This document shows positions 29,579-34,136 of a DNA stretch of 64,000 nt, piece after piece (within the stretch, counting starts at the first letter, position 1; every line of letters begins with the position of its first letter). The DNA is taken from NCBI GenBank assembly GCA_017535725.1, contig JAFXTO010000040.1:1-64000 (forward strand). The letters run 5' to 3'. The notes under the pieces were generated by a model. That model had not been told where the DNA came from, did not search any database, and was given only the letters and a program-made list of their open reading frames with translations. The position numbers were made by a program, and so were the translations under genes. This stretch comes from Bacteroidaceae bacterium (lineage in GTDB: Bacteria > Bacteroidota > Bacteroidia > Bacteroidales > Bacteroidaceae).

Positions 29579-29586
29579 TACTTTTG
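29579..29586 (+). promoter_or_regulatory. -7 box in front of the structured leader RNA
   Basis: TACTTTTG followed by GCATGTGGAATC; transcription would begin about 29592. No TTTG is found at the expected -33 distance. Confidence 0.55.
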
Positions 29587-29591
29587 CATGT

Positions 29592-29830
29592 GGAATCGGG
29601 GAGAAATCCGGTTTCATTGATGCATTAGCTTATTATTTCGCGCTTAACCAAAAGTGCCTGAGAAACTCTTTTTGGAATAGTCACGAGATAATAGAAGTGA
29701 GGTTACCAGAGCAATCTGGATACCTGCCTAAAGTGTAAAGCTATGCCCTCGCCTTATGGCGTGGCGTTCTTATTACACAACAGGCAGGGGTTCCAATTCT
29801 CAGGCACGCCCCACGGTTAAGCGCATAAGG
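29592..29830 (+). ncRNA. Structured RNA or leader of the CXXX-peptide operon, family unknown
   Basis: A long nested hairpin is visible: GCGCTTAACC (29640-29649) with GGTTAAGCGC (29815-29824); GTGCCTGAGAA (29654-29664) with TTCTCAGGCAC (29797-29807); TTGGAA (29672-29677) with TTCCAA (29791-29796); CCTGCCT (29723-29729) with AGGCAGG (29782-29788); GTGTAA (29733-29738) with TTACAC (29773-29778); and a tip CGCC-TTAT-GGCG (29750-29761). The 5' side also holds a small hairpin CCAGA-GCAA-TCTGG (29706-29719). The outer three stems are 27 perfect base pairs. It lies between a -7 box and the operon's first gene, so it may be a riboswitch-like leader, or an independent RNA such as a 6S-like RNA, which also is a long rod with a one-sided bubble. 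No terminator is visible before the gene. Confidence 0.6.
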
Positions 29831-29882
29831 ATGATCACGCCATTTTTATGCCCTTACTATTGCATTCAGTAAATCTAAATGG

Positions 29883-30413
29883 ATGTGTACAACGTACAGA
29901 CTCCTACATCCAGAAAGTGAAACGCTGAATCTCGGGAAGTCTATAGGCCTAACATGTTTTATTATTTTGAAGTATTTCTCTCGTTTATTATTAACAGGGT
30001 GTCTTCTTCTACCTTTTTTTGTAACATCATGTAGTAAAGATGGTGATGAAGAAGAAATCACCGAAATTGTTGACTCATCTCAAAACAACGATTCTAAAGA
30101 AGGACAGCAGACAACAAACAAAAAACCAGTTATCCGTTCTTTGAAATTATCTGTCAAAAAGAATGGTTCGAAAGTATCTTCTTCTGTAGGTATCAATGCA
30201 ACGATACAAGTCGAAAACCCAGCCGACGCTCCTGTTACAAATGTATCTATCTCATGTGAAGGGAAAACGGCTTCTGCAAGGTATTCTATGGGATATTATA
30301 CAGCAAGTCTCACTGTCCCTGGAAAAGCCTATGGAACAACTTATACCGTAAAAGCAACAGCAACTAATAAATATGGTTCATATACCAGTAATACATCATT
30401 CAAAAGACCATAA
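29883..30413 (+). CDS. Lipoprotein at the head of the CXXX-peptide operon
   Basis: Up to 176 residues; the true start may be internal because the first 25 residues do not look like a signal. The lipoprotein signal is clear (LLLTGCLLLPFFVTSCSKDG), followed by an acidic linker (DEEEITEIVDSSQNNDSKEG) and one Ig-like beta domain of about 85 residues (VIRSLKLSVKKNG to SYTSNTSFKRP). It ends 4 bases before the Cys-repeat peptide, so the two are co-transcribed. I do not recognise the family. A role as surface partner or immunity protein for the peptide would be a guess. Confidence 0.7.
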   Translation: MCTTYRLLHPESETLNLGKSIGLTCFIILKYFSRLLLTGCLLLPFFVTSCSKDGDEEEITEIVDSSQNNDSKEGQQTTNKKPVIRSLKLSVKKNGSKVSSSVGINATIQVENPADAPVTNVSISCEGKTASARYSMGYYTASLTVPGKAYGTTYTVKATATNKYGSYTSNTSFKRP

Positions 30414-30417
30414 TATA

Positions 30418-30726
30418 ATGAAAACAACATCAGAAAACATTTGTTCAAGAAGGGAATTCTTCAAACAAGCAGCAAAAGGCGTATTGCCCATTTTAGGACT
30501 AACTATTTGGGGACCATCTTTAATATCTTCGTGTAGTAAGGATGATTGTGATGGTTGCAACAATAGTTGTTCTGATAGTTGCGTTACAAGTTGTAAAAAT
30601 ACCTGCGATGCAAGTTGCTCATCTGGCTGTAAAGGAAGTTGTAGTACCGGATGTAGTAAAACTTGCAAAACGACCTGCCAAACAACGTGCAAAGAAAGGT
30701 GTAGTACAAAATCAAGATATAATTAA
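30418..30726 (+). CDS. Cys-X-X-X repeat peptide precursor with twin-arginine lipoprotein signal
   Basis: 102 residues. The N-terminus has a twin-arginine motif SRREFFK (residues 10-16) before a hydrophobic stretch (GVLPILGLTIWG) and a lipobox-like LISSC, so the product should be exported folded and perhaps lipidated. From residue about 46 on, 13 cysteines follow each other at exactly four-residue spacing (CNNSCSDSCVTSCKNTC and so on) with mostly Ser, Thr, Lys, Gly and Asn between. This matches what is called CXXX repeat peptide in protein family naming, a target of radical SAM maturases. Two bases separate it from the radical SAM gene. Regular spacing suggests a thioether or other Cys-based repeat modification along one face. 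Start ATG 30418 follows the preceding stop closely. Confidence 0.9.
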   Translation: MKTTSENICSRREFFKQAAKGVLPILGLTIWGPSLISSCSKDDCDGCNNSCSDSCVTSCKNTCDASCSSGCKGSCSTGCSKTCKTTCQTTCKERCSTKSRYN

Positions 30727-30728
30727 AG

Positions 30729-31913
30729 ATGGCATCAGAAGACAGTCTTACACGTTACAAGAACATAACTTTTATTGTGACCAAAGATTGTCAATTGGCT
30801 TGTAAATATTGCTATCTCGTAGGAAAGAATTCTAAGGAAAGAATGTCCTACGAGATAGCGAAGTTGGCTGTTGACTATCTGTTAAACGAAAACCGTAATT
30901 TCCAAGAAGAAGGGGTTGTCTGGGATTTCATAGGGGGAGAACCCTTCGTAGAAATAGATTTAATAACACAAATATGTAATTACATCAAATATGTGATGTA
31001 CGACAAAAATCATAAATGGTTTAACAATTATAGATTTAATATCTCAACAAACGGAATAAATTATAATAATGATAAAGTTCAGAAGTTCATAAAGGATAAC
31101 CATACCCATCTGAGTATTGGCATAACTATTGATGGGACAAAACAAAAACACGATTTAAACCGTATATATAAAAATGGGAAGGGATCTTATGATGATGTCG
31201 TCAAAAACATTCCATTATGGGTGGAGCAATTCCCTAATGATGGGACTAAAGTGACTATCAGCAATTTGGATATTCCATATATTAAAGAGAGTGTCTTGCA
31301 CCTTTATAATCTCGGCATTCATGAAGTTAATATAAATTGTGTTTTCGAAAATGTATGGAATGAGGGAGATGATATAAAATTTGAACAGCAGCTGATAGAA
31401 CTGGCTGATAGTATTATAGATAAAGGGCTTTATAAAGCCTATGATTGTTCGTTCTTTTCCGAAAATATTGGGAAGCCACTTGTTGACAATGGAAATTGGT
31501 GCGGAGCAGGGATGATGCTCGCAATTGATTCATCTGGCAATTTCTACCCATGTACGCGATTTGCCGGCTACTCCTTACGCTCAAAGAAACCAATTGTTAT
31601 TGGAAATGTTTGGAACGGAATTGACAATAATAAACTTCGCCCTTTTCTAACGCTTAACAGAAAAATGCAAAGCTCTCAAATGTGTATCGACTGTGAAGTG
31701 GCCAGTGGATGTGCGTGGTGCCAAGGCGAGAATTACGATGCAGCAGATACTCCTACCATCTATCAGAGATCCACTGCTATATGCAAAATGCATAAAGCTC
31801 AGGTTCGTGCCAACAACTACTATTGGAACAAGCTCTATCGCAAGTTAGAATTGGAAGGCGAGCGAGAGGAGTTTGAGAAAAATAAAAAAGAAACAAAAGA
31901 CATCATCTGTTGA
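30729..31913 (+). CDS. Radical SAM/SPASM peptide maturase for the CXXX repeat peptide
   Basis: 394 residues, cytoplasmic. The S-adenosylmethionine cluster motif CxxxCxxC is CQLACKYC (Cys21, 25, 28), and IGGEPF is the SAM amino-group motif. ISTNGI and ITIDGT continue the barrel. The SPASM part has CGAGMMLAIDSSGNFYPC near 257, then CIDCEVASGCAWC and a final Cys, ligands for extra 4Fe-4S clusters. Such enzymes modify cysteines or neighbouring residues of a leader-bearing peptide; the peptide directly upstream is the evident substrate. The next gene starts 4 bases after the stop. Confidence 0.92.
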   Translation: MASEDSLTRYKNITFIVTKDCQLACKYCYLVGKNSKERMSYEIAKLAVDYLLNENRNFQEEGVVWDFIGGEPFVEIDLITQICNYIKYVMYDKNHKWFNNYRFNISTNGINYNNDKVQKFIKDNHTHLSIGITIDGTKQKHDLNRIYKNGKGSYDDVVKNIPLWVEQFPNDGTKVTISNLDIPYIKESVLHLYNLGIHEVNINCVFENVWNEGDDIKFEQQLIELADSIIDKGLYKAYDCSFFSENIGKPLVDNGNWCGAGMMLAIDSSGNFYPCTRFAGYSLRSKKPIVIGNVWNGIDNNKLRPFLTLNRKMQSSQMCIDCEVASGCAWCQGENYDAADTPTIYQRSTAICKMHKAQVRANNYYWNKLYRKLELEGEREEFEKNKKETKDIIC

Positions 31914-31917
31914 CGAT

Positions 31918-32844
31918 ATGCTGCAATACCTTATTTTATTATTAGACGATACGAGTACCTCGTTTTGTCATTACGAGAATCCTAAAACGGAACGTCGATT
32001 GATTCCCGTGGAAACATTGAGGCAGGGAATCCGATTCAGTATGATGGAGAATCTGATGATCCAGTATGTTTATCCCGACTATGAGCTTCCCCAAGATTAT
32101 CAGGATGTGATAGAAAGTATAGACCACTCCAAAATCAAACCCCAAAAAGAAGATGCAGATGTGTGGGTGACAGACAAGGTGGAATGCTTGAGTTCGGATA
32201 TCCCTGTGGTGTTACGTATTGACAAAGAGGGCTTGCTCGCTCATGAGCAGGGAATCGCTGAGGCAATAGGAAAAGTTTCGAGACTGAATATCGTTCTGAC
32301 TGATGTAGAGACTTTCATGGAAGAAGACTTTACTCACTACAAGTCTTTACTTGGAAAACTATCATCCTCGTTGGAACAATTATATGTTGATGGGAAAACT
32401 CCGCAACTAAATTTACTGACTGACCGCATGATGCTCAAGCAGATGAACAACTGTAGAGCGGGCGATACGACAATCACACTGGCACCTAACGGAAAGTTCT
32501 ATGTCTGTCCTGCTTTCTACTATGAAGACCCGTCTGATAGCATCGGTGATTTGGAGAATGGACTTGACATTATGAACAAACAACTATATCGGCTTGACCA
32601 TGCACCAATTTGCAGTCATTGCGATGCATGGCAATGCAAACGCTGTATTTGGCTGAACCGCAAGACAACGCTGGAAGTGAACACTCCTTCACATGAGCAA
32701 TGTGTGTTAGCACATTTGGAGCGTAATGCAAGCCGCGATTTGTTGAATAACATACGCAAGCATGGGACTTTCCTTCCTGAACAGGAAGAAATCAAAGAAA
32801 TAGATTATTTGGACCCTTTTGATAATAGAGACGAATGGCAATGA
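31918..32844 (+). CDS. SPASM-type CXXX peptide maturase lacking the radical SAM cluster motif
   Basis: 308 residues from ATG 31918 (an earlier in-frame ATG at 31873 would overlap the upstream gene by 41 bases). There is no CxxxCxxC in the first half, where RLIPVETLRQGI and IPVVLRIDKEGLL suggest a barrel remnant. The C-terminal part keeps a SPASM-like set: CRAGDTTITLAPNGKFYVCP (about 181) and CSHCDAWQCKRC (about 236), plus a last Cys. I match this to proteins named CXXX repeat peptide maturase. A second protein of this type beside a true radical SAM enzyme suggests a two-component complex that presents or holds the peptide. It overlaps the next gene by four bases (ATGA). Confidence 0.8.
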   Translation: MLQYLILLLDDTSTSFCHYENPKTERRLIPVETLRQGIRFSMMENLMIQYVYPDYELPQDYQDVIESIDHSKIKPQKEDADVWVTDKVECLSSDIPVVLRIDKEGLLAHEQGIAEAIGKVSRLNIVLTDVETFMEEDFTHYKSLLGKLSSSLEQLYVDGKTPQLNLLTDRMMLKQMNNCRAGDTTITLAPNGKFYVCPAFYYEDPSDSIGDLENGLDIMNKQLYRLDHAPICSHCDAWQCKRCIWLNRKTTLEVNTPSHEQCVLAHLERNASRDLLNNIRKHGTFLPEQEEIKEIDYLDPFDNRDEWQ

Positions 32845-33110
32845 AGAAACTTGTAGGGCAAGTGACACCCGAAGAGCGTACAGAGATTCAGACGCTCTTT
32901 GAACGTCGCAACGGATTGAATGAACTGGCGAAGATTCTGACAGCAGACAATGCCGAGTTGTATGAGAAACTTGTGAAAGATTTGGGCGAGACCAGTACGA
33001 AGTTCCAAAGCTGGTGGGATCGTATGGCTCAGAAATACCTGTGGGAATCAGCTGAGAATGGCAACTGGGAGATTAACTTTGAAACATGTGAAATATTTCT
33101 CGTAGCATAA
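32841..33110 (+). CDS. Small CXXX peptide modification-system protein
   Basis: 89 residues from ATG 32841, which overlaps the previous stop as ATGA; ATG 32835 is an alternative. Helical and charged at the start ([20 protein letters not shown]), then [11 protein letters not shown] and a C-terminal [16 protein letters not shown] associate this with proteins named CXXX repeat peptide modification system protein. It may bind the precursor leader. The TAATG junction with tatA shows tight translational coupling. Confidence 0.75.
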
Positions 33111-33349
33111 TGGCATTAAAACTGTTATTTATTGGCACAACCGAATTGCTGCTTATCAGCGGCCTTGCCCTGCTGCTTTTCGGCGGTAAGAAACTGCCAG
33201 AAATGATGAAAGGTCTGGGGCAGGGCGTTCAGAGTTTCAAGAAGGGAATGAAAGAGCCTTTGGAAGAGGAAACAGAAGAAGCAGAGTCAGAGCAAGAGAA
33301 TGTCGAAGGAGAAAAGAAAGCAAAACCAGAAGACAAAGACAAGCAATAA
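33110..33349 (+). CDS. tatA: TatA-type component of a dedicated twin-arginine translocase
   Basis: 79 residues. One N-terminal membrane helix ([19 protein letters not shown]) is followed by the conserved hinge [17 protein letters not shown], an amphipathic helix and a strongly acidic/lysine tail. TatA oligomers form the pore that passes folded Tat substrates. The gene starts inside the stop codon of the upstream gene. There is no separate TatB; in two-component systems TatA does both jobs. The likely cargo is the twin-arginine peptide in the same operon. Confidence 0.9.
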
Positions 33350-34136
33350 AGGCACAGAACACGATGAGGCTCTGATGACTACTGGCGGACACCTTGAAGT
33401 GCTCCGCCAAATGCTTTTCCGTATCCTTGGCGTAGCTGGGACTTTTGCTGTAGTAATATTCTGCTTCAAGGACACTACATGGCAACTACTGCTTGCTCCA
33501 AGTGAGTGGGACTTCTGTACTTACCGCTGGATAGAATCGGCTTTTCAATTCTTAGACACGGGCTTCCGCTTTGAGGAGTTCCATGTCAACCTGATAGCTA
33601 CTGATTTATCGAGTCAGTTCATGACACATATCACAACGGCTGTTTATCTTGGTGTATTGGGAGCATCACCTTATATATTATTTGAGCTGTTCTGCTTCAT
33701 ATCGCCTGCGCTTTACGAAAACGAACGCAAATATTCCGTACAGGTAGCTGGCATCGTCTATGTGCTCTTCATCCTCGGCGTGCTGATGTCGTACTTCGTG
33801 CTGTTCCCCATCTCGTTCCGTTTCCTCGGCACTTACAGCGTGTCGGCAAGGGTGGTGAGCAACATCACGCTTGATTCGTATATTTCTACCTTTGTGTCGT
33901 TGACACTGGTCATGGGTGTTGTGTTCCAACTACCCATTATTGCTTTCTTCCTTGGCAAGATGGGCGTGATTACTTCCGAAATGCTTTCCCAATACCGCAA
34001 ACATTCCTTCCTCATCATTATGTTGGTGGCTGCTATCATCACCCCGCCCGACTTGATGACACTTATTCTTGTTACCATTCCTCTATATCTTCTTTATGAA
34101 TTAAGCATTAGAGTTGTAAAAATCGTTGAGAATTAA
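33300..34136 (+). CDS. tatC: TatC, receptor of the dedicated twin-arginine translocase
   Basis: 278 residues at most; ATG 33375 would give 253 and begins with the family's N-terminus [12 protein letters not shown], so the true start is uncertain. The conserved [32 protein letters not shown] (receptor loop with Glu), and later [20 protein letters not shown] are present, with six membrane spans. TatC binds the RR motif of exported precursors. The first start overlaps the tatA end by 50 bases. It closes the operon; no terminator is obvious before the repeat at 34164. Confidence 0.92.

Follow-up and report, generated by a model that had tools for sequence, protein, structure and literature searches.

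A CXXX-repeat peptide operon of the Bacteroidaceae pairs a radical SAM system with a twin-arginine signal and a separate Tat lineage

Why would an operon for a short, cysteine-rich peptide end in genes for a twin-arginine translocation (Tat) system? The question is raised by a stretch of 64,000 nucleotides (the window; positions 1 to 64,000 of contig JAFXTO010000040.1, assembly GCA_017535725.1) from a Bacteroidaceae bacterium, in which a precursor peptide with Cys-X-X-X (CXXX) repeats, a radical S-adenosylmethionine (SAM) enzyme, two further proteins of its modification system, TatA and TatC are encoded in a row. A preliminary description of this DNA proposed that the modified, rigid peptide has become unfit for Sec and needs Tat, and that the operon brings a private translocase for it. 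We consider it probable that the operon, of a kind found in gut Bacteroidales, makes a radical-SAM-modified cysteine-ladder peptide and exports it via Tat, with the signal doubling as leader for the modifying enzymes and the operon's own TatA and TatC usually serving as the translocase.

The operon and its precursor peptide

Seven genes on the + strand (29967–34136) run in the order lipoprotein, peptide, radical SAM enzyme, maturase, modification gene, tatA, tatC, an arrangement with small gaps and overlaps that agrees with the preliminary description. From the peptide onward they are:

30418..30726, + strand: precursor peptide with CXXX repeats, bearing a twin-arginine signal and a lipobox (TIGR04117 40.2 bits, cut-off 50)
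30729..31913, + strand: radical SAM/SPASM maturase, TIGR04115 (604.5 bits, cut-off 350; CteB 5wgg, E 2e-29)
31918..32844, + strand: SPASM-only CXXX maturase, TIGR04119 (250.8 bits, cut-off 150)
32835..33110, + strand: CXXX modification system protein, TIGR04116 (102 bits, cut-off 50; predicted fold, mean predicted local distance difference test score 93.9)
33110..33349, + strand: tatA, operon type (TIGR01411 57.8 bits, cut-off 53.9; PF02416; differences between groups)
33300..34136, + strand: tatC of the operon lineage, with Gln where E. coli has Glu170 (TIGR00945 156.1 bits, cut-off 132.7; PF00902 199.1 bits; tree)

Four bases separate the lipoprotein stop (30413) from the peptide ATG (30418), two lie between the peptide (end 30726) and the radical SAM gene (start 30729), and four between the end of the latter (31913) and the likely ATG of the maturase (31918). 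The maturase (end 32844) and the modification gene (start 32835) overlap by 10 bases, base 33110 is common to the modification gene and tatA, and tatA (end 33349) overlaps tatC (start 33300) by 50 bases. An alternative ATG stands at 33375, and tatC may start there, because residues 12–18 are absent from about 90% of 68 operon TatC proteins. TatA and TatC both score over their family cut-offs, and the TatB model stays below its own (29.1 vs 56.5).

The window's peptide has 102 residues and contains, as had been described, the motif SRREFFK and 13 cysteines, each exactly four residues from the next; it also carries a lipobox (ISSC, then SKDD) that the preliminary description lacked. With SRREFFK, a hydrophobic stretch and the ISSC lipobox, it fits the RR-x-F pattern of Tat substrates. 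Its match to TIGR04117 falls below the cut-off (E 2.7e-10) with the CXXX array present, and it is absent from the hits of the general Tat-signal model TIGR01409 at E values up to 5.

Related loci were drawn from two scans. Within the same family, a TIGR04115 match over the cut-off was present in 24 of 201 genomes, and 25 regions surrounding these matches were taken. Species genomes, scanned in addition, contributed the 80 best of 373 candidates as named loci, a set skewed to close relatives (by title, 77 Bacteroidales; the other three are Clostridium, Lachnospiraceae or Clostridia). Removal of repeats left 96 distinct radical SAM loci, including the window. An RR-type CXXX peptide is found in all 93 that have enough upstream sequence: 137 RR-type open reading frames (ORFs) span 89 loci, a looser cysteine rule adds L052, L124, L125 and L184, and the remaining three (L130, L157, L182) end before the upstream peptide region. 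Because the motif RR.F[FLIM] occurs in 137/143 CXXX ORFs as opposed to 16/3125 other ORFs of at least 80 residues from the same loci (searched within the first 60 residues), the RR motif of these peptides is beyond chance. Tat targeting by the RR signal, claimed earlier for the window's peptide, looks constant across the sampled family as far as such motifs can tell. The idea that the system is general in the Bacteroidia was rejected, TIGR04119 being found in 1 of 395 genomes of the class, the window's own.

Downstream on the same strand, within 9 kb, 65 of the 96 loci have tatC and two have tatA alone; 22, with more than 4.5 kb visible downstream, have neither, and seven end too early. Hence tatA and/or tatC follows in 67 of the 89 loci readable downstream.

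These signals are also unusually uniform. The conserved segment across the 137 peptides reads E-L-Q-S-R-R-E-F-F-K-K-A-A-K-x-x-L-P-I-L-G, position +4 being F in 133 of them and position +13 being P in 130. Ordinary Tat-type signals (n = 17) have F at +4 in only two, L or I in the other 15, and P at +13 in none; this comparison set comes from 17 of 30 loci (L235–L264), since RR.F[LIFMV] could not be read in the remaining 13, and its members include at least two (L242, L264) that fall below the TIGR01409 cut-off. Peptides from operons lacking tatAC keep the same FF/LP signature (F at +4 in 26/26, P at +13 in 24/26), which is therefore not kept for the private TatC. The simplest reading that the pattern suggests is a leader for the modifying enzymes.

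Might the RR segment be a recognition leader only, with Sec and the pathway for lipoproteins handling export? Ordinary Tat signals in these genomes are less conserved than the signature, which does not change with the presence of tatAC, as such a role would allow. On the other hand, the signature sits within a Tat signal that has all its parts (RR, a hydrophobic stretch, and a cleavage or lipobox site), same-strand tat genes follow in the 67 loci counted above, and the CXXX proteins of an Anaerococcus plasmid, L266 and L269, which have no RR, also come without tat genes in the stretches covered. We regard export by Sec as very improbable.

These few loci outside the typical Bacteroidales operons fit RR and tatAC going together with Tat export. 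On the conjugative plasmid of Anaerococcus prevotii (L267; NC_013164.1, 44–8866) the radical SAM enzyme is fused to a CXXX maturase. A short stretch resembling TIGR04116 (32.9 bits, cut-off 50) is also encoded there, as is a peptide of 56 residues whose four cysteines have CXXX spacing and which lacks RR; ABC transporter genes come next, and no tat gene turned up in the 15.6 kb examined. Two phage-type loci, L266 (4369–7251; it reads TAG as Gln) and L269 (6451–9251), have a CXXX protein without RR adjoining a TIGR04115-like enzyme (399.6 bits in the former and 300.6 bits in the latter, which is below the cut-off of 350), here too with no tat gene in the stretches examined. L270 (Bacteriophage sp.) carries a Bacteroidales-like set of RR-type CXXX peptide, maturase, modification gene, tatA and tatC, and in L271 an 8-cysteine peptide without RR adjoins a more distant radical SAM gene. 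On L265, a short phage-type contig, the radical SAM enzyme scores 418 bits and no CXXX ORF was found. The A. prevotii plasmid also carries a lanKC gene.

The operon TatC as a separate lineage

TatC in general is common (160/201 family genomes), and the window's TatC as query finds a match in 104 of 121 genus genomes. These matches fall into two identity groups, one of ten genomes at 70–100% to the window's protein (52% in G257; split in G210) and the other at about 34–50%. The high-identity, operon-type TatC is present in 10 of the 28 genus genomes with the radical SAM gene and in none of the 93 without it, short remnants in G234 (68% over 73 residues) and G235 (83% over 35), neither with a listed radical SAM match, being left uncounted. 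The modification gene adjoins each of the nine operon-type copies besides the window's.

In a tree of 117 TatC proteins, a single branch (Shimodaira–Hasegawa-like approximate likelihood ratio support 88) splits 68 operon from 49 housekeeping copies, and the operon or housekeeping state changes once, as opposed to a mean of 37.8 when shuffled. The operon tatC is thus a separate lineage tied to CXXX operons, and to this extent the proposal of a private translocase holds.

The two sides also differ at fixed positions. Near the TatC start the operon lineage mostly has GG and the housekeeping proteins W(D/E). Residue 210 of the window's TatC is Gln in 62/68 operon copies, and its equivalent is Glu in 49/49 housekeeping copies; the six other operon copies have four Glu, one Leu and one unread residue. 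The four with Glu (L156, L161, L171, L190) cluster where the operon side first divides, with support of 95 without L190 and 64 with it, the support for the rest of that side being only 20. Residue 210 aligns with Glu165 of the Aquifex TatC structure 4b4a, which is Glu170 in E. coli. There, replacement of Glu170 by Ala gives a transport-inactive TatC and locks the assembled translocon (PMC10092561).

A pair of this kind has a counterpart in phoD/tatAd-tatCd of Bacillus subtilis, likewise a minimal TatA plus TatC and a second pair beside the general one, for which one known cargo is co-expressed with the pair (PMC6708511, PMC3827258). As in that dedicated pair, a separate TatC lineage is linked here to a cargo gene. 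The B. subtilis cargo, however, is an enzyme, whereas the present operon supplies a short cysteine-repeat peptide together with modifying enzymes of its own, and the operon TatC differs in having Gln at the Glu170 position.

Four TatC genes outside such operons (G113:C51, G127:C45, G155:C32, G339:C3) lie within about 3 kb of a long ORF with a Tat signal, and may therefore also have linked cargo.

Modification, cargo and route of export

The window resembles the CXXX-repeat system of NCBIfam (TIGR04115/04116/04117/04119) in having three enzyme families over cut-off and a peptide that matches TIGR04117; it differs in the sub-threshold score of that peptide. The family names and the descriptions available for them mention neither Tat nor a lipobox. 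The radical SAM enzyme is nearest to PapB within NCBIfam and, among solved chains, to CteB, and for this reason thioether cross-links on the CXXX array are our best guess, made by analogy with these ranthipeptide enzymes. PapB joins Cys to Asp or Glu in CX3D/E motifs, likewise at four-residue spacing (PMC9413430). Over 2189 CXXXC steps in the present arrays, in contrast, the residue before the next Cys is Ser, Gly or Thr in 73%, and Gly accounts for 35% at X2. The present operon also differs from the PapB/PapA and CteB systems in its second SPASM protein and in the Tat signal at the N-terminus of the peptide. For the modification protein, a two-helix hairpin with three short strands is predicted with high confidence, a structure for which no telling match was found. 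Bufferins, copper-related ribosomally synthesized and post-translationally modified peptides (RiPPs), are similar as modified cysteine-containing peptides with an N-terminal export signal; they depend on MNIO/DUF2063 rather than radical SAM chemistry, and tat genes are not mentioned in the available portion of that report (PMC12538549).

The number of cysteines per CXXX ORF runs from 7 to 74, a spread illustrated by L151, L149, L153 and L032 (7240–8508). Some arrays contain a long non-repeat region; the one in L032 has no Pfam match.

Such regularly spaced cysteines would also suit a metal- or Fe-S-binding lipoprotein that is loaded in the cytoplasm with the maturases aiding assembly, so that Tat would be used for the cofactor and not for cross-links. 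Cofactor-bearing proteins are Tat cargo (PMC6708511), and a lipobox is frequent (strict pattern in 23/62 loci with tat and 12/20 without). The radical SAM enzyme, however, falls in the peptide-modifying SPASM group, whose characterised members modify their peptides covalently, and we hold the metal-binding alternative to be unlikely, if worth keeping in mind.

If the peptide is covalently modified, the following route can be drawn. In the cytoplasm the radical SAM enzyme, aided by its SPASM-only partner and the small modification protein, would act on the CXXX array, the product most likely being thioether cross-links. The additional conserved residues of the signal (ELQSRREFFKKAAK..LPILG) would serve as the leader for these enzymes, and the RR motif, as its conservation strongly suggests, would direct the finished, folded peptide to Tat. 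The operon's TatA–TatC pair, separate from the housekeeping Tat, would then move the peptide across the inner membrane, a task that in operons which have lost the pair probably falls to the housekeeping Tat. Anchoring through the lipobox may finally make the window's peptide a lipoprotein, perhaps one displayed at the cell surface. Whether all this amounts to a radical SAM peptide class in which the leader is the Tat signal, the cargo is cross-linked and a dedicated TatAC uses Gln at the Glu170 site, we judge to be an even question.

Several observations weigh against this route, or parts of it. On the enzyme side, the alignment of the radical SAM protein with CteB begins only at residue 93 of the CteB chain, and neither the CteB comparison nor the predicted structure of the modification protein identified a leader-binding (RRE) domain. 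The conserved signal could stem from the common descent of the peptides. With regard to export, 22 of the 89 readable loci have no tatAC, and all 21 of these with a readable peptide keep the RR signal; because of this the private translocase is not required, and the expectation that RR-type peptides always occur alongside tatAC fails. On the radical SAM tree the presence of tatAC is scattered, with 16 changes, at least five of them forced by supported branches. The pair has been repeatedly lost or gained, and the private translocase is common but dispensable. Among 50 genomes re-searched for TatC, 19 have an operon without tatAC; TatC lies elsewhere in 16 of these, and none was found in G310, G320 and G324, which have 1, 1 and 5 other Tat signals over cut-off (completeness not reported) and may, because of those signals, be incomplete. 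The window's own genome, finally, encodes three further proteins with Tat signals over cut-off, a pair of Gfo/Idh/MocA oxidoreductases and an aldo/keto reductase that has ferredoxin-like domains, yet the operon's is the only TatC found, in an assembly that is 76% complete.

This last point, together with the unchanged signal of tatAC-less operons, by which any Tat may serve, would be expected if the operon tatAC were simply an extra or replacement general Tat, adjacent by chance and without substrate preference. Several features of the lineage argue otherwise: its confinement, in the genus sample, to genomes with CXXX operons, its fixed-position differences from the 49 housekeeping TatC proteins, and its company. 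All 31 re-searched genomes with a tatAC operon have TatC, and 26 have two or more matches, a count in which both matches of G333 lie in CXXX operons and some matches are pieces; in five the operon copy stands alone. With G000, G099, G085, G125 and G276, these five make ten genomes in which the operon's is the only TatC found, less firmly so for G276, which was searched with the window's TatC only, and for G125, with a single match without location.

No other Tat signal over the TIGR01409 cut-off appears in six of these ten genomes as opposed to 2 of 22 with a further TatC. The four that do have such signals have one to three each, as a general Tat would allow, and the overall contrast (4/10 vs 20/22) gives a Fisher p of 0.005. 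The genomes compared are 39 chosen by hand (14 + 25) and differing in size; the 22 were assigned by count and position rather than by tree, and seven without a TatC found were set aside (G015, G043, G082 and G020, with no signal over cut-off, and G310, G320 and G324). Because of the choice by hand, the size differences and the failure of TIGR01409 to detect CXXX signals, this contrast is supporting evidence only. On balance a general Tat without preference appears unlikely, and we favor a pair that usually serves the modified peptide.

Named isolates show the range of arrangements: Leyella stercorea DSM 18206 has a tatAC operon and is among the five genomes with the operon TatC alone, Bacteroides salyersiae DSM 18765 has a tatAC operon and two TatC found, and Bacteroides congonensis has an operon without tatAC and one TatC found. 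In the window's genome there is a second RR-CXXX operon, L051, with no tatA in the roughly 570 bases from its modification gene to the contig end.

The upstream region and wider significance

Three further features lie ahead of the peptide gene:

29579..29586, + strand: TAnnTTTG promoter-like box, read directly in the sequence
29590..29870, + strand: structured leader RNA, candidate new RNA family (folding z, covariation, no Rfam family)
29967..30413, + strand: lipoprotein gene with a probable TTG start and no conservation in related operons

Position 29579, from which the preliminary description began its operon, is thus no gene start; the TAnnTTTG box there, which we take to be the Bacteroides promoter consensus, precedes a structured RNA leader. 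The lipoprotein probably starts at TTG 29967, because the stretch before it matches a conserved leader that is also present in L052. No relative of this lipoprotein was found in other related loci at E up to 10. It is therefore not a conserved part of the system, and its membership of the system was rejected.

The RNA element precedes the operon over about 280 bases and has a folding z of -7.36 for 29600–29880. In an alignment of 17 sequences, 90.6% of cells are paired, compared with 31–47% when the alignment is slid; both sides change in 12/45 pairs, compared with a mean of 7.9 after shuffling, and the score for covariation reaches 0.174 vs 0.085 for shuffles. One of five measures, further pair types, shows no excess (30 vs 30.1), no double changes occur in helices 2 and 6, which may be pseudoknots, and in helix 3 two of the pairs are for the most part not formed. 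The element matches no Rfam family, and its identification as tRNA, tmRNA or any known Rfam family was rejected; it is a candidate new RNA family. Six of the 96 CXXX loci, the window included, have it upstream in the same orientation. Specificity for CXXX operons was likewise rejected, as a match occurs in 32 of 121 genus genomes. The whole element is recognised in 15 of 30 loci, where the next ORF (at least 80 codons) begins 38–261 bases on and in 15/15 has, by eye, an exported or lipid-anchored look.

What is new here is that a radical SAM peptide system comes together with a signal for Tat and with a Tat lineage of its own. Within the open-licence literature no paper was found that combines CXXX peptides with Tat, a search that older subscription work could escape, and in the available text of a survey of Bacteroidales RiPP clusters CXXX, Tat and twin are absent as whole words (PMC10352776). 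If the proposed route is true, it would join peptide natural products with folded-protein export, and would offer a defined cargo for Tat, very small and provided with a translocase of its own, with which to study how Tat transports folded proteins. It would also provide a natural TatC with Gln at the very site, Glu170, where Ala inactivates the E. coli protein (PMC10092561). Parts of the system are carried by named isolates, Leyella stercorea DSM 18206, Bacteroides salyersiae DSM 18765 and Bacteroides congonensis.

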